From Gammaproteobacteria bacterium (GTDB taxonomy: Bacteria > Pseudomonadota > Gammaproteobacteria > DSM-16500): DNA of 14,844 nucleotides. The position numbers were made by a program, and so were the translations under genes. How positions within the stretch are numbered: the stretch's first letter is position 1; each line of letters opens with the position of its first letter. The notes beneath the pieces are model-generated. The model was not told the DNA's origin, did not search any database, and saw nothing but the letters and a program-made list of their open reading frames with translations. Below are positions 4,142 through 14,242 of this stretch, piece by piece. The stretch spans positions 1 to 14,844 of the forward strand of contig JABDEF010000010.1 in the NCBI GenBank assembly GCA_013287235.1. The letters are read 5' to 3'.

Positions 4142-5893
4142 ATGCCTCTCTTCAAAGACCGCGCTGAAATATTTCGTCAAAGAGTTGAAGCCTTTCATAC
4201 ATTTTTTGCGCGCGAATTTGATGAAGTTGAGGACAAAATGCTCGATAAAGAAATCCCAACGCTTGAAAAAGAATTAGCTCTTTTTCTTTCCTCTGTGAGA
4301 TCGATGCGTGAGAATTTAGAAAAGGAATTAAAAGAATTAAAGAAAATGGCAACCTCGACAGAGGATCATGAAAGTCTTATTCCTTTGAAAGAAATATCAG
4401 TTATACAAACCAATTTTATTTTTCGATATTATAATGGCTATGTAAAACGCGTTAATGCTCAAATTGATTTATTTAATGAAAAAGTAGCCACTCTTCTAGA
4501 ATATTATTTTAACCAAAAATTGGATTGTAAGGAGGATTGGACTTCTATTAAAAAAGGATTGGATAGTGAATTTCCCTTTTTTTTAAAAACAATCTATGAA
4601 GATTATGAGCAAGTTTATATTTTGCGAGACGTATTTTTGCAAGATGTTGTTATTGCTAATAAAAAGTATAACCATCATTTGGATTTAGCGGGGCAAATTA
4701 CGGTTGTAGAAGATTTGAAAAATATTGTCAATATTTTAAGAAAACAACGCGCTTGTTTTATTGATGTATATAAAAAAGACGAATATGAAAAACGTATTCA
4801 TGAACATCAGGAAAATATCAAGAAATTTGAAAAAGAGATAACTGATATATTGACTGCTATTGCTCGCAATGAACATATCACGATTTCAGCAATGTGTATC
4901 AATGAAAAGAAAGATCATCTTGAAAAAATGTTAAGTACATATTGCGATTTACAAGAAAAAATAAAGTTTGATGAAATCGCGATAAAAGCAGAAATAGAGG
5001 CACTCAAGATTGAATATCCTTATTTGAGTCTTGAAATGCCTATTTTCCCAAATTTAACAATGGACTCGTCAGAAATACAAAAAAGATATGAAAATGCTTT
5101 AAAAAAAGGTTGGAAAAATGCAATTGCGAATGATTTAGATGCAGCATACGATGGATTAAGGAGGGGTCCGATTGTTACAAAAAAACCACATGATACGATT
5201 GATAAAAACATTTATGAAGAACGTTTTAAACAAAAAATTGAAACACTCGAAAGAAAAGATGCGATTATTCAAATTTTGAATAATATGTGGAAAAAGTTAC
5301 CATGGAGTGGTTATTGGGAAAAATACGAAAAAGCAAAACGTGTTCGACATTTTCATCAAGAATCAGCAGAGTTAAATCAAATGGATCTGGATTGTCGAGA
5401 GTCTTTTGAACAATTTTTTCCTAAAACTTTTGCCAAACCTTCAGTACCTTATTTTGTTTTAGAGCCCAGACCTATGCTGGAAGAAGAAAGCAAAGAGCCT
5501 TCTTATCTTCCCCGTGAAAGGCAAACGTGCCAACGAAAACCTGTTCCTCCATATCAGTATAATCCTCTTCCAAAGCCTTCGACATTCGACACCTGCCAGT
5601 CGGAAGAAGAAAAAAAAGAATCTCATGTTCTTTCTGACGAAGGGCAGAAGTGCCAACGAAAACCCGTTCCTCCATGTCAGCCTACTCCTCTTCCGAGCCC
5701 TCCGACATTAAGCACCTGTCATTTGATGTTATCCTGTCTATGTTTTGGCATAGGGGGTCTTATATATCTTGGATTTTATGCTTATCAATATTATCAATAT
5801 CGAAAAAGTTATAATCAAAATTGTTTTTTTCGTAAAAAACTAAAACAGGAAGAAATGCCTCAGCCTCATAAGGACTTGATTTGTCAGACATAG
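4142..5893 (+). CDS. Large coiled-coil protein with C-terminal Pro/Cys repeats and membrane segment, unknown function
   Basis: I do not recognise this 583-aa protein. About 430 residues are charged and helical, with heptad-like stretches at about 28-70, 205-290 and 355-375. A proline-rich section then contains two copies of a 25-residue unit (461-485 and 502-526, period 41 residues). Each copy begins Q-x-CQRKPVPP and ends with x-T-C. One hydrophobic segment (about 528-551, LMLSCLCFGIGGLIYLGFYAYQYY) is followed by a basic, then Glu-containing tail (KKLKQEEMPQPHKDLICQT). The ATG is supported by GGGGAG (4133-4138). The layout (soluble coiled coil, C-terminal anchor, hydrophilic tail) would suit a host-directed secreted protein in a Legionellales genome, but that is speculation and a plain cytosol-facing membrane protein is equally possible. 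sodB follows after 42 bp. Confidence 0.8.
   Translation: MPLFKDRAEIFRQRVEAFHTFFAREFDEVEDKMLDKEIPTLEKELALFLSSVRSMRENLEKELKELKKMATSTEDHESLIPLKEISVIQTNFIFRYYNGYVKRVNAQIDLFNEKVATLLEYYFNQKLDCKEDWTSIKKGLDSEFPFFLKTIYEDYEQVYILRDVFLQDVVIANKKYNHHLDLAGQITVVEDLKNIVNILRKQRACFIDVYKKDEYEKRIHEHQENIKKFEKEITDILTAIARNEHITISAMCINEKKDHLEKMLSTYCDLQEKIKFDEIAIKAEIEALKIEYPYLSLEMPIFPNLTMDSSEIQKRYENALKKGWKNAIANDLDAAYDGLRRGPIVTKKPHDTIDKNIYEERFKQKIETLERKDAIIQILNNMWKKLPWSGYWEKYEKAKRVRHFHQESAELNQMDLDCRESFEQFFPKTFAKPSVPYFVLEPRPMLEEESKEPSYLPRERQTCQRKPVPPYQYNPLPKPSTFDTCQSEEEKKESHVLSDEGQKCQRKPVPPCQPTPLPSPPTLSTCHLMLSCLCFGIGGLIYLGFYAYQYYQYRKSYNQNCFFRKKLKQEEMPQPHKDLICQT
5522..5719 (+). repeat. Intragenic tandem duplication (123-bp period)
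   Basis: Two diverged DNA copies start at 5522 and 5645. Each begins with a sequence of the type TGCCAACGAAAACC and continues through CCTCTTCC. They encode the two CQRKPVPP...STxxTC units of the 583-aa protein. The spacing is a multiple of three, so copy-number change would preserve the frame. Confidence 0.8.
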
Positions 5894-6602: not shown

Positions 6603-7463
6603 TTATCGCTTTACAGAATATCCCATCCCATTATCACTATTCACTAACTTATGCAATCTGTTGATTTTTCCCTCTGTTGTCGTTTGATTGCAGAACCACC
6701 AATTTCTTGTGAGACAATAATTAAATGCGTTAAATAGACATCCACTAAATATGAAAGATGCAAAATTCGCAACAATTTTCTTCCATCCGCGGTGTGGTGC
6801 AAACTTTGCGTCATATTGATGTAATTCATTCATGAATTTTAATTTAAAATGTAACCATTCTATTTTTGATTTGTTGATATTATTTTCCTTTCGTTCAGGC
6901 GGATTCTTCACTAACTGAGATAAATTTCGAGATAAGGACATGGCATCAAAACCTTTATCGGATATCGCTTTTATTTTTTTTCCATATTCTTCTATATCAA
7001 TAATGCTTTTTTTAACATTTTTAAAAGTGGTGTCTTTCCAAGGAGATAAAGCCGTTTTAGGAATGTCCGTTTGTTCTAAGTGTTTAATAAAAATTTCATA
7101 AATAGCAATATTTTCTGATTCTATCACGTCAGATATTAATCGAAAAAATAATGATTGACGTTCATAAAATAATGCTTCAAGAAAAGGTCGTACACAATAT
7201 AGTTCATGTTGTTCTTTTAATTGATCAGTCTCTTTCGGATGGGAATTTATCCATACCTGTTTTTTTAAAGCATTACGGTAAACGAAATCACTTGAAAGCA
7301 GTTCAGAAATAAAATCGAGATCATTGCCTTTGAGATAGGATTTAATTTGTTTACAAACGATTTCGGGGTCTGTTGGAAACACCGGGGTGAAATATCTTTT
7401 GAATCCATTGACATAACTACCCACTTCTTGGTAAGTGGTAAATTGCTTTGTTTTTTTGCTCAT
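6603..7463 (-). CDS. Unrecognised 286-aa protein
   Basis: No family is recognised. The product is rich in Lys, Phe, Asn and Ile, predicted largely helical, and has no signal peptide. The only clearly hydrophobic patch is about residues 229-250 (IVANFASFIFSGCLFNAFNYCL), followed by a polar tail ending GMGYSVKR. The ATG at 7463 is supported by AAGGA seven bases upstream (7471-7475 on the plus strand). It is transcribed alone, divergent from the blaI-M56 operon, and converges on sodB. An orphan or lineage-specific protein is likely. A secreted effector is possible but nothing in the sequence shows it. Confidence 0.7.
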   Translation of the reverse strand: MSKKTKQFTTYQEVGSYVNGFKRYFTPVFPTDPEIVCKQIKSYLKGNDLDFISELLSSDFVYRNALKKQVWINSHPKETDQLKEQHELYCVRPFLEALFYERQSLFFRLISDVIESENIAIYEIFIKHLEQTDIPKTALSPWKDTTFKNVKKSIIDIEEYGKKIKAISDKGFDAMSLSRNLSQLVKNPPERKENNINKSKIEWLHFKLKFMNELHQYDAKFAPHRGWKKIVANFASFIFSGCLFNAFNYCLTRNWWFCNQTTTEGKINRLHKLVNSDNGMGYSVKR

Positions 7464-7654: not shown

Positions 7655-7738
7655 GTAAGTAAATAACTGTCATCCCGCAGATGAGAAATTCCTTCCCCCA
7701 CGCTTCGCGGGGGGAAGGAATTATTTCAGTTTACTTAC
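7655..7738. repeat. Nested palindromic element upstream of blaI
   Basis: The outer arms GTAAGTAAA (7655-7663) and TTTACTTAC (7730-7738) enclose a strong hairpin with 13-bp arms AATTCCTTCCCCC (7687-7699) and its complement (7710-7722), extended by CGC/GCG around a TTC loop. The two nested dyads suggest a small MITE- or REP-like insertion. It ends 8 bp before the first BlaI-type operator. The rest of the 7464-7818 gap contains the leader of the minus-strand gene and the blaI promoter. Confidence 0.75.
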
Positions 7739-7745
7739 CTTAATA

Positions 7746-7783
7746 AACTAAACTTTTAGTTGATAATAACTAAAAATTTAGTT
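7746..7783. promoter_or_regulatory. Twin palindromic operators for the BlaI-like repressor
   Basis: Two perfect 16-bp dyads AACTAAANNTTTAGTT occur at 7746-7761 (centre CT) and 7768-7783 (centre AA). Their centres are 22 bp apart, about two helical turns, so two dimers would sit on the same face. The second dyad covers almost the whole -35/-10 spacer and the first touches the -35 box. Placement directly upstream of blaI implies autorepression. The half-site differs from the TACA/TGTA core described for staphylococcal BlaI/MecI. Confidence 0.8.
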
Positions 7784-7788
7784 ATCAT
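7760..7788 (+). promoter_or_regulatory. blaI-M56 operon promoter
   Basis: TTGATA (7760-7765) and TATCAT (7783-7788) are separated by exactly 17 bp; each is one mismatch from consensus. Transcription would begin near 7795. The SD AAGGAA (7808-7813) follows, then the ATG at 7819. The spacer is occupied by the second operator dyad. Confidence 0.75.
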
Positions 7789-7818
7789 TGTTTTCTCATT
7801 CAATAAAAAGGAAACTTT

Positions 7819-8202
7819 ATGACCAAGTACCATTTAACACCCGTAGAACACGAATTGATGGAAATTCTTTGGAAAATCGAAGAAGGAACTGTTCGCGATG
7901 TGATGGAACATCTACCGCAAAAAAGAAATCTTGCCTATACATCCGTTTCCACTATGCTTCGGATACTCGAACAAAAAAAGATAGTCAAAACAAGAAAGCT
8001 TAAGCGCACACATATTTATATCCCTGCATTGAATAAATCCACATTTGCAACGCTTACTTTAAATAAAATGGTTACTCAAGTTTTTTCAGGAAATGCTGTC
8101 GAATTGGTTTCTTATCTTGTCAATAAAAATACGATCAGTACTGACGAGATTACCGAAATTCAGAAAATCATTGAAAATAAAAAAAAGGAGCTCGAGCGAT
8201 GA
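7819..8202 (+). CDS. blaI: BlaI/MecI/CopY-family transcriptional repressor
   Basis: The 127-aa product has the family's N-terminal winged helix (LTPVEHELMEILWKI..., about 6-70). The recognition-helix region is LAYTSVSTMLRILEQKK (38-54) and the basic wing is TRKLKRTHIYIPAL. A helical C-terminal dimerisation region follows (about 74-127). Family length is about 120-130 aa. Such repressors bind dyads as dimers and are inactivated by proteolysis triggered by a BlaR1/MecR1-type partner. The ATG is supported by AAGGAA 5 bases upstream. The stop overlaps the start of the M56 gene (ATGA), giving translational coupling. Twin dyads in its promoter imply autoregulation. The symbol reflects the family; no beta-lactamase gene is seen in the window. 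Confidence 0.92.
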   Translation: MTKYHLTPVEHELMEILWKIEEGTVRDVMEHLPQKRNLAYTSVSTMLRILEQKKIVKTRKLKRTHIYIPALNKSTFATLTLNKMVTQVFSGNAVELVSYLVNKNTISTDEITEIQKIIENKKKELER

Positions 8203-9755
8203 TTTATTTACATACTTATTTATTATTCAATATCAGCATTGCCGTTGGCTTTATTATTTTTAAAGTTGTTTGTTGGGGAAATCACAAAGGGTCACAATGG
8301 CAAAAATTACAATTTATGAGAAATACCTTAATCATATCTATGATTTTATTTCTTTTCATACCCTGGGTGATAACCTTCATCCCAACGAATTTGCACTCCA
8401 CATTGGCATGGGATCCTTTTTTAAAAATCGATTCAGCTTCCTCTGTGCATGATCATGTTATCGCAATAACTGAATCCGTACCAATAATATCCTCTCATGA
8501 AAATGAGATTTCTATGCGAGCACTATGCATGCTATTTTGGTGGATCGGATTCGCGTTTTTTATTTTTAAATATATTAAAAATATTATTTTTTTAAGAAAT
8601 CTTAAATCAAAAGCGATAGGTCGACATAAACTGCATGATGTGCAGATTCTCATTGCTGATACCATTGATGTGCCATTTTGCTTTCGTTTTTTAAAATATC
8701 ATTATGTGATGATTCCGCTGAATTTTATAGAAAATACCTTAGCGCGTCAGCATGAATTACAGCATATTCGACAAGGGGATACGACATGGCATCATATTTT
8801 ATCCGCTTTAAAAATATTTTGTTTTTGGAATCCTTTCGTGTATTTTGTGACGAAAGAGATGCATGAATTACAAGAATTTTCGTGTGATGAATCCGTTATT
8901 TTGCGTAAAAAAGCAAAGCCCACAACATACGCAGAATGTCTCATGCATTCCGCATCTTCGATGAGCGAAATTCCGGAAGGTGTGCTCGGCGTGCATGTTT
9001 TATCAAAATCCATACTTTATAGGAGAATTAATATGTTATTTCATTATCGTCAAGGCAAAAATGTTTCGTTTTTGATGGCTTATTTATTATGTTTTTTCAT
9101 TGCGATGTCTTCTGCTTACGCATTCAATAGCAAATCGAGAGATCTCACCGCTTTAGAAGTGACTCAACTCGTCCACCAATCGAGTCAGGATAAACGTTTG
9201 CAAGTGAAAGTTACCCCGGAAGTATTAGGAACGCTTAATCAAATGCGAAATGATGAAAAACTCCGTCAAAAAATGCAACTTGCATTAAAAAGAATGAAAC
9301 AGTATCAACCTTACATTCAGGATGTTTTGGTGAAAAATGATATGCCAAAAGATTTTCTTGCCTTACCATTGGTGGAGTCGGGATATCGCGTATTACCAGA
9401 AAATCAAAATCGTGTGAAAGCAGCGGGGTTATGGCAAATTATACCTGAAACAGGAAAACACTTTGGTCTCAGCGTTCAAGGTTCGCATGATGATCGTTTA
9501 GATACGGTATTATCGACAAATGCCGCGATAAAATTATTACAGCAAAATTATGATCAATTTAAAGATTGGAAATTAGCCGTGGTTGCCTATGAAATCGGAG
9601 ACGAAAAAACAGCACAATTAATTCAAGATACCCATTCGCATGATGTGAATATTTTGGCACGTGCGACGAATGCGCCAGAAGGGTTACAGAATTTTGTTGC
9701 AATGTTTGATGCTACGGTGATTGTGATAAATCATCCAGCGCTGTTGGATTCATAA
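8199..9755 (+). CDS. BlaR1-like M56 metalloprotease fused to a MltD/SLT-type lytic transglycosylase domain
   Basis: The 518-aa membrane protein has four hydrophobic segments (about 5-26, 43-61, 108-127, 289-308). The loop between segments 3 and 4 holds the M56 zinc protease: HELQH at 185-189 and a downstream E226-x2-CDE that supplies the likely third ligand, the architecture of BlaR1/MecR1. The part after segment 4 (about 310-518) is not a penicillin-binding sensor. It resembles the MltD/SLT transglycosylase fold: FLALPLVESGYR (catalytic Glu candidate E393), AAGLWQIIPETGKHFGL (408-424), DDRLDTVLSTNAAIKLL, and a late VAYEIGDEK where the family usually has AAYNAGEG. Topology would put the protease in the cytoplasm near BlaI and the transglycosylase domain in the periplasm. 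It starts inside the blaI stop with AAGGAG (8185-8190). Whether the SLT domain is catalytic or only binds glycan is unknown. Confidence 0.9.
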   Translation: MIYLHTYLLFNISIAVGFIIFKVVCWGNHKGSQWQKLQFMRNTLIISMILFLFIPWVITFIPTNLHSTLAWDPFLKIDSASSVHDHVIAITESVPIISSHENEISMRALCMLFWWIGFAFFIFKYIKNIIFLRNLKSKAIGRHKLHDVQILIADTIDVPFCFRFLKYHYVMIPLNFIENTLARQHELQHIRQGDTTWHHILSALKIFCFWNPFVYFVTKEMHELQEFSCDESVILRKKAKPTTYAECLMHSASSMSEIPEGVLGVHVLSKSILYRRINMLFHYRQGKNVSFLMAYLLCFFIAMSSAYAFNSKSRDLTALEVTQLVHQSSQDKRLQVKVTPEVLGTLNQMRNDEKLRQKMQLALKRMKQYQPYIQDVLVKNDMPKDFLALPLVESGYRVLPENQNRVKAAGLWQIIPETGKHFGLSVQGSHDDRLDTVLSTNAAIKLLQQNYDQFKDWKLAVVAYEIGDEKTAQLIQDTHSHDVNILARATNAPEGLQNFVAMFDATVIVINHPALLDS

Positions 9756-9769
9756 ATATTTTAACCGTC

Positions 9770-9794
9770 GTCCCGTCATGCTTTTAGACGGGAC
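9770..9794. repeat. Short hairpin after the M56 gene
   Basis: GTCCCGTC (9770-9777) and GACGGGAC (9787-9794) form a perfect 8-bp stem with a 9-nt loop, 15 bases after the M56 stop. No T-run follows, so it is a weak terminator candidate or the remnant of a dispersed repeat. Confidence 0.5.
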
Positions 9795-9815
9795 TTCTGG
9801 CCCGAGATTTCTAGA

Positions 9816-9844
9816 TTGCAATCAAACGCGTATCATATTAATAT
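9816..9844 (+). promoter_or_regulatory. Candidate promoter of the tonB-like gene
   Basis: TTGCAA (9816-9821) and TAATAT (9839-9844) are 17 bp apart, each with four of six consensus bases. No AACTAAANNTTTAGTT dyad is present in 9756-9871, so if this promoter is used it is probably not under the same repressor. Confidence 0.35.
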
Positions 9845-9871
9845 ATAAAAATTGTAACAATAGATCTATAA

Positions 9872-10465
9872 ATGCAAAAGATACATTATTTTTTGACATC
9901 CATTACCATACATCTTGTTTTCTTTTCGTTAATTTTTTTGCGTTTCCATGTTTTTGCGTTGCCAGAGAGGCTAGGGCGTAATAGTGAACCCATTTTATCT
10001 TCTTATATTTATGCACCGACATTGCATGTGGTTGAAAAGAAAAATTTGGTGAAAAAAGAAAAAATTGTAAAACCTATTCAAGAAAAACACCTGTCATTCC
10101 CGCGAAGGCGGGAATCCATCCGGATGGATTCCCGCCTTCGCGGGAATGACATGGATTCTGGCAATATGCATCAAGGTGTTGATAAAGAGCCATTGATCGC
10201 ATTATTACATGATGCCATTCAAAAAATGCAGCAATACCCCGAAAGCGCACTTGCGATGGAGCGAGAGGGCAGGGTTAAGGTCGGATTTATTTTATACAAT
10301 GACGGAAGTGTTGGTGATTTACGATTGTTATCGAGCTCGGGGACGACTAGCTTAGATAATGCAGCATTGAAGGCAGTTCGAGAGGCTTCACCTTTTCGAA
10401 ATGTTATCAAATATATTAAAGCGATTCAGACTTATCAAATTGATATTGTATTTGAATTGACTTAA
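9872..10465 (+). CDS. TonB-family energy-transducing protein carrying an in-frame palindromic insert
   Basis: TonB-family proteins couple inner-membrane proton motors (ExbBD or TolQR) to outer-membrane receptors. The 197-aa product has an N-terminal membrane helix (about 6-25) with the S-x3-H motif (S10, H14). A Lys-rich periplasmic linker follows, then a TonB C-terminal domain (about 106-197) with QYPESALAMEREGRVKVGF, NDGSVGDLRLLSSSG, LDNAALKAVREASPF. Residues 74-94 (LSFPRRRESIRMDSRLRGNDM) are encoded by a 60-bp perfect palindrome and have the composition of translated dispersed repeats, not of a TonB linker. The ATG has no obvious SD. It lies 116 bp after the M56 gene on the same strand. 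No exbB or exbD is nearby, so it may use the TolQR motor (inference). Confidence 0.85.
   Translation: MQKIHYFLTSITIHLVFFSLIFLRFHVFALPERLGRNSEPILSSYIYAPTLHVVEKKNLVKKEKIVKPIQEKHLSFPRRRESIRMDSRLRGNDMDSGNMHQGVDKEPLIALLHDAIQKMQQYPESALAMEREGRVKVGFILYNDGSVGDLRLLSSSGTTSLDNAALKAVREASPFRNVIKYIKAIQTYQIDIVFELT
10092..10151. repeat. 60-bp perfect palindrome inserted in the tonB-like gene
   Basis: Positions 10092-10121 are exactly reverse-complementary to 10122-10151. Each arm starts or ends with the TGTCATTCCCGCGAAGG type sequence widespread as dispersed repeats. Length is 20 codons, so the reading frame is kept. It lies in the linker between the membrane helix and the C-terminal domain, where extra residues are tolerable. 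This is analogous to the Rickettsia palindromic elements found in coding regions. Confidence 0.95.
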
Positions 10466-11591: not shown

Positions 11592-12572
11592 ATGAGCAGC
11601 ACTCTTATCGAAGCATCTGACGAAAAGCAATCACTTGAAATTTCGGAAGCTTTACAACCCTGGATTAATAATCCCTATATTAAAGCCGCCACAAGCGATA
11701 ACACAAGAATTGCTTATCAAAGTGATATTCGTCATTTTGAATCGTGGGGAGGAAAATTACCTGCGACACCGCAAATCATTGTCGAATATTTGCAAGCCTA
11801 TGCTGCTCAATTAAATGCACGAACGTTGAGCCGACGTTTAACAGCGCTCAAAAACTGGCATCAATATCAAGGATTTGTGGATCCTGTGCAGCATCCTGCC
11901 GTACAAAAAACCTTGTCGGGTATCATACGTGTGCATGGCAAACCAAAAGATAAAGCTTATCCCTTATCCCCTGAAGATTTATTATGCATCATTGAATTCC
12001 TGCAAAAAGAAGATTCATTGACGGCGTATCGAGATAATGCACTGTTACAAATGGGTTTTTGTGGCGCGTTTCGTCGTAGTGAGTTGGTGCAAATAAAAGT
12101 TGAACACATCGAATGGAAGGATCAAGGGATTGATATTTTAATTCCACAATCAAAAACCGATCAAACACATGGCGGTCAATACTGTGCACTCCCCTACGGA
12201 AAAGGTTTGTTTTGTCCTATTGCCGCATTAAATCAATGGTTAAAGATGGCGAATATTGAAAGAGGTCCTTTGTTTCGTGAAATAAAAAAAGGCGGTAAAT
12301 TAAAAGCATCTCCGCTTACGCCACTTTCAGTCAATCATATTTTGAAAAAACGGGCGCACGATGCAGGGATTCCCCATGCAGATAAATTCAGCAGTCATAG
12401 TTTGCGAAGAGGCATGGCGACGAGTGCCAGTCGTTTAGGCGTTCAAATTCCAGCAATTATGCGTCAAGGCCGTTGGAAGCAGGTGAATACCGTGATTGAA
12501 TATATTGAAGCAGCGGAGCGGTTTCAGGAAAATGCGGCGTTGAAGATAATTAATAATTATAATAATGAATAA
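11592..12572 (+). CDS. Tyrosine-type site-specific recombinase/integrase
   Basis: Enzymes of this family cut and rejoin DNA through a phosphotyrosine. The 326-aa product has an N-terminal core-binding (SAM-like) domain (about 24-110, NTRIAYQSDIRHFESW... TLSRRLTALKNWHQYQ) and a catalytic domain (about 120-320). The catalytic set is present: R161 (GAFRRSELV), K188 (QSKTD), H269-x2-R272 (SSHSLRRG), W295 at the usual second His/Trp position (GRWKQ) and the nucleophile Y304 (VIEYIEAAE). The ATG follows AAGGTGG (11579-11585) by 6 bases. The N-terminal half resembles XerC/D-type or integron/transposon-type recombinases. No other phage or transposon gene is in the window. A 31-bp dyad lies 85 bp downstream. 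Confidence 0.93.
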   Translation: MSSTLIEASDEKQSLEISEALQPWINNPYIKAATSDNTRIAYQSDIRHFESWGGKLPATPQIIVEYLQAYAAQLNARTLSRRLTALKNWHQYQGFVDPVQHPAVQKTLSGIIRVHGKPKDKAYPLSPEDLLCIIEFLQKEDSLTAYRDNALLQMGFCGAFRRSELVQIKVEHIEWKDQGIDILIPQSKTDQTHGGQYCALPYGKGLFCPIAALNQWLKMANIERGPLFREIKKGGKLKASPLTPLSVNHILKKRAHDAGIPHADKFSSHSLRRGMATSASRLGVQIPAIMRQGRWKQVNTVIEYIEAAERFQENAALKIINNYNNE

Positions 12573-12766: not shown

Positions 12767-14242
12767 ATGAGTTCTAGTTCTACCCGATACACGATAAGTG
12801 TTTTCGATTCTGATGAAAAAGAAAAGAAAGTGGAAAATCACAAATGGCAGCCATCGAAACACAAAGTAGAGGAATATAAAACTTTAATTTTAAAAAAGAT
12901 AACCGCTTCCGACATGCTATATAATTTAGACAATAAAAAAATCAAACCCTCGAAAAACATTCCATTTCTCGAGCAATACGCTGGTGCGGCTGCTTTTTGG
13001 TCTGATAGAGAGCAGGTTACCGAACAATTAATTAAGCTTAATGGTTTATTAATTGAAGAAGCAAAGAAATATGATTTGGTTACTACTAATAGCTCGGGTC
13101 ATTTCATCATCAAACCCGCCGAAGATGATAAATTTTATTCTGCGCACCAGAAGATTTTACGTCACGTCTTAGAACGCGAAATCGCAGCTTTTCTTTTTCG
13201 AAAAAAATTAGTCAAATTAGAGGGTGAATTAGGTACCGGCATATTTTTAGAATTAGTTAGAAATGGCTATTTATTTAAGGATTCAGGGCTACGAGAAACC
13301 ACCCATGGAGAATTTACTCATACCCTACAATGGTTGATGTTGGCATGGCAATTAGAAGAGTACGATTTTTTTAATGGTGTTCCAGTTTTGACTGTTTACA
13401 AATCTTTAGGTGAAGAAAGTGCTATTTTGGAAAGTGCTCCTTTGGATATACCAGGCCTTAGAGAAGTTGGCGTAAATATTTGGGATATTATTGTAGATAT
13501 TGTTCCTTTGTATTCTCCACTAAGAGTAAATTTAGGAAAACCAGATGTTCAGCAACCTTATAATCATCCTGATACAGATCCTCGTCATTTTATAGTGCCC
13601 TATAATTTGCATTACTTTTTAATCCATAACACTTTGCCAGCACTTTCATTTCTAACCAGTTTAATCAGTTCACGAGATATTAAACGAGAAAAAGAGTCTG
13701 CAAATGAATTAGAGATTAGTCCAACCATAACACCCAAATTACATAAAACATTATTTCCAAATACGTCTTATACTCGCTGCTTTCCTAATGTACTTTTACC
13801 TGTAGATGAAAAAGATGCTATTTATAAAAAATTAGCTTTGCAAACTGAAATTGCGGAATTTCCTATTTCTACACTGACACAATATGATGATAAGTTTATA
13901 AAAATACATGAAAAATTTATGCAAGCAACGACTTTGTTGAATCAGAAAAAGTATGATGCAGCGATAAAAATATTTAAAAATATTGAAAAAGATTTTCTGC
14001 ATTTAAGCATCAGTCAACAACAGAGAGGTTATTATTATTTAGGATATGCGCTTACCCGAGTTAATCAAGCAACATCGGCAGATATTTATCTGCGAAAAGC
14101 ATTGTATGTCAGTAATCAAGCCGAAAGAACTGACGAAATAACTGTCGATTTTATTCCTAAGAAAAATGTTCTGACGGAATTAGAAGTAGTGCAACATATC
14201 ATACGCTCAAAAAAGGATGCGGCGCTTCTTCAGTATAGGTGA
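12767..14242 (+). CDS. Unrecognised 491-aa protein with a TPR-like C-terminal segment
   Basis: No family is recognised. The start is secure (GAGGA, 6-base spacing, strong promoter upstream). The N-terminus is polar and Lys/Glu-rich (1-60) with no signal peptide. The middle has a distinctive ETTHGEFTHTLQWLMLAWQ block (177-195) with His180 and His185 in an H-x4-H arrangement followed by QW. Later, residues about 381-447 (HEKFMQATTLLNQKKYDAAIKIFKNIEK... YYYLGYALTRVNQATSADIYLRKAL) fit about two helical hairpins of TPR type. The protein appears soluble. In an intracellular Legionellales-type genome a secreted effector is a fair guess, but there is no direct evidence. It is transcribed alone, between the recombinase and an M15-like gene. 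Confidence 0.8.
   Translation: MSSSSTRYTISVFDSDEKEKKVENHKWQPSKHKVEEYKTLILKKITASDMLYNLDNKKIKPSKNIPFLEQYAGAAAFWSDREQVTEQLIKLNGLLIEEAKKYDLVTTNSSGHFIIKPAEDDKFYSAHQKILRHVLEREIAAFLFRKKLVKLEGELGTGIFLELVRNGYLFKDSGLRETTHGEFTHTLQWLMLAWQLEEYDFFNGVPVLTVYKSLGEESAILESAPLDIPGLREVGVNIWDIIVDIVPLYSPLRVNLGKPDVQQPYNHPDTDPRHFIVPYNLHYFLIHNTLPALSFLTSLISSRDIKREKESANELEISPTITPKLHKTLFPNTSYTRCFPNVLLPVDEKDAIYKKLALQTEIAEFPISTLTQYDDKFIKIHEKFMQATTLLNQKKYDAAIKIFKNIEKDFLHLSISQQQRGYYYLGYALTRVNQATSADIYLRKALYVSNQAERTDEITVDFIPKKNVLTELEVVQHIIRSKKDAALLQYR

Follow-up and report, generated by a model that had tools for sequence, protein, structure and literature searches.

Receptors of the BlaR1 type are known to sense beta-lactams through a penicillin-binding domain that the drug acylates. 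Here, we describe a relative of these receptors encoded in a stretch of 14,844 nucleotides of a gammaproteobacterial contig (JABDEF010000010.1, assembly GCA_013287235.1; the whole stretch is hereafter called the window). In this window a blaI-like repressor gene is followed, with an ATGA overlap, by a gene for a 518-amino-acid protein, in which profiles and structure place a BlaR1-type M56 protease at residues 1 to about 280 and an MltD-type lytic transglycosylase (LT) domain at residues of about 328-518. We consider it probable (roughly 0.58) that this protein is a BlaR1-type receptor-protease whose periplasmic sensor is the LT domain, the nature of the signal being inferred. A homologue search restricted to proteins of 0.55-1.75 times the query length gave 225 proteins at E=1e-3, and all counts out of 120 given below refer to the 120 matches listed. 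The features of the two genes are as follows.

7819..8202, forward strand: blaI, a repressor of the BlaI/MecI family (PF03965, E=2.9e-29; MecI match, 2.1e-8).
8199..9755, forward strand: the M56-MltD fusion protein of 518 amino acids (Pfam and NCBIfam profiles, homologue search, structure model).
8751..8765, forward strand: HELQH zinc motif, residues 185-189 (kept in 118 of 120 homologues).
8874..8876, forward strand: E226, third zinc ligand by homology to E242 of BlaR1 (120 of 120 homologues; BlaR1 residues from the text available of PMC9834060).
9063..9122, forward strand: fourth transmembrane segment (TM4), residues 289-308, whose AYA end is a signal-peptidase-like site (helix 291-310 in the model; AxA-like in 118 of 120).
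9180..9752, forward strand: MltD-type LT domain, residues 328-518.
9375..9377, forward strand: E393, the catalytic Glu of the LT domain by homology (115 Glu and 5 Gln of 120).
9585..9599, forward strand: AYEIG, residues 463-467, replacing AYNxG (Glu in 115, Asn in 2 and Thr in 1 of 118).

An earlier note on this DNA had proposed a BlaI-M56-LT architecture, with the membrane layout of BlaR1 and with the LT domain occupying the position of the BlaR1 sensor. All three proposals agree with the present results, since the C-terminal part is assigned to SLT by Pfam and to MltD by structure, the catalytic residues lie at the corresponding positions, and there are four membrane helices. The catalytic and supporting residues of BlaR1 named in the available text of PMC9834060 are H201, H205, E242, D246, D210, Y261 and R294. 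By spacing and alignment, they correspond to H185, H189, E226, D230, D194, Y244 and R275 or R276 of the fusion protein, and each corresponding position is either invariant or conserved in at least 90% of the 120 sequences (H185, E186 and H189 in 118, the exceptions being two shortened proteins; E226 and D230 in all). The M56 gluzincin signature of BlaR1/MecR1 (HExxH...ExxxD with an accessory Asp, Tyr and Arg) is therefore present. The loop between the second and third membrane segments (TM2-TM3 loop), which according to the same source reaches the sensor in BlaR1 (PMC9834060), has a conserved core in the family, with P73 in 109, F/L/Y at position 69 in 97 and S79 in 75 of the 120 sequences. 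Pfam analysis of the 518-amino-acid protein gave SLT and no transpeptidase or beta-lactamase domain, that is, no penicillin-binding sensor with SxxK, and found no LysM domain in the fusion. On the NCBIfam models, the fusion scores 25.8 and 22.7 bits for BlaR1 (cut-offs 400 and 1200) and 82.9 bits for MltD (cut-off 508). When 12 genomes were searched for M56 proteins, a single match at 1e-5 was obtained in 11 and two matches in one. The BlaI protein shows the marks of the BlaI/MecI family, namely a Penicillinase_R domain (PF03965) and a palindromic operator, to which it would bind.

The earlier note had named an assembly artefact joining separate genes as one of the findings that would undo its interpretation. 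We rejected this explanation because 118 of the 120 homologues listed carry both Pfam domains (M56 and LT) and complete loci occur in both groups of genomes described below; the two exceptions, P0116 and P0119, both begin after HExxH. In the gammaproteobacterial order of G001, which includes Aquicella siphonis, the fusion was found in 8 of 36 genomes (threshold 1e-60), one of which, G034, holds a remnant, and in a sample of the gammaproteobacterial class it was found in one of 369 genomes, G001 (threshold 1e-80). Outside this class, it occurs in 47 of 368 genomes of the Bdellovibrio phylum (threshold 1e-70) and, within that phylum, in 20 of 140 genomes of the order of G003, a member of the Bdellovibrionaceae (threshold 1e-80). 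The window itself probably belongs to the order of G001 or to its vicinity, since its TolQ has matches in 30 of the 36 genomes of this order, with identities of up to 76%. No plasmid locus matched at least 80% of the query, and no relative is encoded at any of the 30 places where viral contigs matched the pattern. Three loci (L023, L051 and L061) that were candidates by match span turned out to be ordinary MltDs. Of the database records, P0047 is already entitled "M56 and MltD domain-containing protein"; P0097, from Aquicella siphonis, bears the name MltD. As in BlaR1/MecR1, a partner blaI belongs to the operon: it lies directly upstream of the fusion in 26 of 27 loci (the window, L001-L004, L095-L099 and 16 of 16 loci of the Bdellovibrio phylum), the sole locus lacking it being that of G034.

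The region in front of blaI contains a pair of palindromes and a promoter candidate.

7746..7761, unstranded: operator site 1, an AACTAA-N4-TTAGTT palindrome (pair 22 base pairs (bp) apart in 21 of 25 loci).
7768..7783, unstranded: operator site 2, an AACTAA-N4-TTAGTT palindrome 22 bp from site 1 (conservation among loci).
7760..7788, forward strand: promoter-like TTGATA-N17-TATCAT (TTGATA from 7760, TATCAT at 7783-7788), interleaved with the operators (consensus scan).

From base composition, about 2e-9 exact pairs at 22-bp spacing are expected in the window. Operators were surveyed in 26 loci, one of which (L120) is without an upstream region; the 22 bp, counted from start to start, hold for the 21 loci given above, the spacing is 21-23 bp in L125, L132 and L134, and in L133 weaker sites lie 31 bp apart. 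Allowing up to three mismatches, the pair occurs once per genome in 15 of 18 genomes and never with the reversed control; the genomes without it are G034, which has the remnant, and G126 and G173, in which the spacing differs. The exact single site has 18 copies in 11 genomes (reversed control, 7 copies), and because all 18 lie at the blaI-m56-mltD locus itself, the operon seems mainly to regulate itself. The locus of G007 has one-mismatch copies only. One-mismatch single sites numbered 11, 4 and 4 in G006, G007 and G019, the operon's own two included, against 26, 24 and 33 for the reversed control, so that no further targets stand out in a scan which weaker or differently built sites could escape. 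Promoter-like pairs are as frequent in the region (12) as in shuffled sequences (12.2 expected) and are weak evidence on their own; the candidate TTGATA-N17-TATCAT is put forward for its position, interleaved with the operators, not for its frequency. A long hairpin (AATTCCTTCCCCC...GGGGGGAAGGAATT) was seen by eye a little upstream of the operators, at 7687-7724. The operator pair, the spread of the family, the neighbouring genes and the signal-peptidase-like site are additions to the earlier note.

The LT domain has the SLT fold and, at E393, the catalytic Glu of MltD. The earlier note had pointed to an altered motif, VAYEIGDEK for AAYNAGEG, and this alteration proved to be clade-wide, with AYE in 115 of the 118 fused members that have a residue there. 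Ordinary MltD domains have AYNxG in 23 of 28 cases, the other five being unmatched by the pattern, and the window protein departs from them in this respect. A phylogenetic tree of LT domains was drawn with midpoint rooting for display only, using 28 ordinary domains out of 76 loci scanned (the rest failed the motif filter). In this tree 40 fused and 28 ordinary domains lie on opposite sides of a branch with 100/99 support, which suggests that the fused LT domains share one origin. All 28 ordinary domains have Glu at the catalytic position, whereas five of the 120 fusion homologues have Gln: P0045 and P0084 (58% identical), P0102 and P0106 (73%), and P0055, which are otherwise 39-44% alike. They sit at three places of the tree, some forks of which are weak, and sequencing error is unlikely because pairs of members share the Gln. 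Replacement of Glu393 by Gln in three places of the tree, with the protein retained, fits a binding role. The suggestion of the earlier note that the domain binds more than it cuts is thus favoured by these members, but 115 of 120 keep Glu, so that most may still cut.

Another line of evidence comes from a plasmid of Legionella hackeliae, which has a blaI-M56-blaOXA operon (L181, 3195-6410). Its M56 protein carries a C-terminal transpeptidase (PF00905, E=2.1e-35) at the position of the LT domain. In the M56 tree the fused proteins do not form one clade, and the non-fused L. hackeliae protein (L181) and L188 nest together among them, a placement to be taken with care as the tree has several long branches, two of which meet. 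By eye, two inverted repeats with a spacing of about 21 bp can be made out in the blaI promoter of this plasmid, and the operator pattern of the LT-fusion family is unmatched there. A nested sister with a transpeptidase at the same place supports the idea of an M56 chassis with exchangeable wall sensors. A sensor role of the LT domain is favoured by the Gln variants and by the transpeptidase sister, and the Glu kept in 115 members allows for an enzyme that is also a receptor.

We infer the following scheme, including the position of the LT domain outside the inner membrane, the binding and cleavage of BlaI, the glycan signal and the induction. At rest, BlaI dimers would occupy the two operators, recognized here by their conservation and spaced by about two helical turns, and would block the blaI-m56-mltD promoter. 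Homology to BlaR1 and the model would put the M56 active site on the cytoplasmic side of the membrane and the LT domain in the periplasm. The groove of the LT domain would meet accessible glycan, such as uncrosslinked strands or anhydro-ended fragments from disturbed wall synthesis, and its occupation or slow turnover would be relayed to the protease by way of TM4 and the TM2-TM3 loop. A ligand narrows the groove in another LT (PMC5951611, in the text available), and such narrowing is a possible route for transmitting binding. The activated protease would then cut BlaI, as in BlaR1 systems, and the derepressed operon would yield BlaI and the receptor itself, joined in some genomes by the beta-lactamase or wall enzyme encoded next. 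Sensing of glycan or muropeptides, as the earlier note had suggested, is plausible.

Several observations weigh against the LT domain being a sensor that acts on BlaI through the protease; those on TM4, on the remnant in G034 and on the catalytic residues stand below with the alternatives that they bear on. The cut site of MecI, N101-F102, is not conserved in BlaI and aligns with Y99-L100. In the Bdellovibrio phylum, the next gene lies on the opposite strand in 10 of 16 loci (same strand in 5, absent in 1). As a second strong operator was not seen either, the system itself is the only output in those loci.

Among the alternatives, we would regard as rather unlikely that the operon encodes a regulated polyprotein, in which TM4 serves as a signal peptide with cleavage by signal peptidase I behind AYA, and the soluble periplasmic LT is the output upon removal of BlaI, the M56 part sensing by another part or a partner. 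TM4 does have a Lys-rich start followed by about 15 hydrophobic residues and AYA, and the AxA-like pattern lies at positions 306/308 in the 118 homologues noted above; were the LT domain released, the sensor would be uncoupled from the protease. A looser scan flagged such sites in 10 of 12 fusions of the Bdellovibrio phylum and in 6 of 6 of the gamma order versus 3 of 10 non-fused M56 controls, but the number of controls is small (10 of the 18 given were resolved, as were 12 of 18 and 6 of 7 for the two groups of fusions), some flagged sites lie beyond the membrane border, and the pattern can have other causes. The remnant in G034 points in the same direction: it is a stand-alone open reading frame (L100, 5941-6684) consisting of TM4 and LT only, which starts just before TM4 after AGGAGA, keeps ES and AYEYG, has neither blaI nor M56 beside it and is preceded by a weak operator-like match. 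In view of the TM4 pattern and of this frame, the LT part may in some circumstances work as an enzyme that is exported. That the main target of the operator is the operon's own product would also suit a polyprotein. However, the change from Glu to Gln in three places would make the released enzyme useless, and the transpeptidase sister has a sensor-type domain at the same position.

Less likely still, to our mind, is an enzyme-receptor: the LT domain would remain attached and cut the wall while reporting on it, the protease would be set by turnover rather than by mere binding, and the Gln members would be derived. The conservation of Glu393 in the family leaves an enzymatic role possible. The residue is also kept in all 18 resolved members of the Bdellovibrio phylum (of 24 given; L133 by eye), which have AYN/SYN in 15 cases and SYY in 3, and at 4 of the 8 loci of the gamma order the operon is followed by LT genes. 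On the other hand, the Gln members retain all other parts, and the gamma clade has changed Asn to Glu in the active-site motif.

We hold it similarly doubtful, as a speculation spanning these accounts, that protease, wall sensor and wall-cutting enzyme are combined in one chain: TM4 would double as a signal peptide, and the LT domain would begin as a sensor and could be shed as output, and, the only strong operator seen in each genome being the operon's own, the peptidoglycan feedback would form a closed loop. That the protein is just an MltD tethered to the membrane, with M56 as a dead relic and no signalling, which would suit the plain name "membrane-bound lytic murein transglycosylase D" in some sources, is very improbable given that the catalytic residues of M56 are invariant or nearly so, that blaI is almost always adjacent and that the operator pair is conserved.

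Downstream of the operon in the window lies one further gene on the same strand.

9872..10465, forward strand: TonB-like gene, possibly co-transcribed with the operon (PF03544, E=1.4e-14).

The earlier note had mentioned this gene as directly following the pair, but a general link with the system is not supported; TonB was flagged at no other locus examined and was rejected as a general part of the system. The gene contains, in frame, a long palindromic repeat at 10094-10154 with the peptide FPRRRESI...DSRLRGND (by eye). At five of the eight loci of the gamma order, a wall enzyme or a beta-lactamase is encoded by the gene that comes next on the same strand: a class A beta-lactamase after 100 bp in L001 (NF033103, 344.8 bits against a cut-off of 200), MltB after 5 bp in L095 (TIGR02282, 334.1 against 281.4), and an RlpA-like protein in L098 (2 bp), L002 (112 bp) and L096 (490 bp). 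The next gene in L097 encodes a protein without a Pfam match, and L099 has an opposite-strand neighbour. In the Bdellovibrio phylum, L124 has a gene for an LprI lysozyme-inhibitor domain protein 1 bp downstream on the same strand. A recombinase-like open reading frame of the site-specific type (by eye) at 771-1331 of L001 adjoins the operon with the class A beta-lactamase, so this stretch may be mobile. Directly upstream of the operon, a gamma-glutamyltranspeptidase gene is present in three loci of the gamma order (L095, 3814-5496; L096, 8569-10293; L098, 8690-10438). Elsewhere in the window, a DUF5636 protein (12767-14242; PF18686, E=1.1e-25) adjoins a phage-integrase-family gene (11592-12572), and two long open reading frames (4142-5893 and 6603-7463) have no Pfam match above the cut-off.

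We found no paper on an M56-LT fusion in the open-licence literature, which omits most subscription journals and preprints. The family keeps the protease, the repressor and the operator logic, and would use the fold of a glycan-strand enzyme as a sensor. If this is true, it would be a membrane receptor that reads wall damage itself and could respond to any wall-active agent, and LT domains that naturally have Glu or Gln, together with the sister bearing a transpeptidase sensor, would offer ready comparisons for non-covalent signalling in M56 receptors.

With BlaR1/MecR1 of staphylococci and bacilli, the fusion shares the M56 gluzincin catalytic set, four membrane helices, an extracytoplasmic C-terminal domain and an adjacent BlaI, and differs in having an MltD-type LT domain instead of the penicillin-binding sensor and a new operator pair. 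The L. hackeliae operon is similar in its nested M56 part, its adjacent blaI and the pair of inverted repeats before it, but has a transpeptidase as C-terminal domain and a class D beta-lactamase gene downstream. A BlaR1 homologue of Mycobacterium tuberculosis, described in the available text of PMC9834060 as being without an equivalent sensor domain, likewise departs from the penicillin-binding sensor, but it is sensorless, whereas the fusion carries an LT domain. Compared with MltD and other family 1 LTs, the SLT fold, the Glu, GxWQ and the Tyr of AYN are the same; the differences are the connection to M56 by TM4, AYE for AYN in the gamma clade and Gln for Glu in a few members. Muropeptide-driven control of beta-lactamase is also known from AmpG/AmpR. 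In Bacillus licheniformis, a dipeptide acts on BlaI/MecI in beta-lactamase control (PMC3305447, in the text available), and effects of LTs on blaA are reported in the corresponding text for Shewanella (PMC5786531). In these systems, too, beta-lactamase genes are under the control of a wall product or of LT activity, but the fragment acts in the cytoplasm or via recycling, whereas the fusion builds the LT into a putative membrane receptor.

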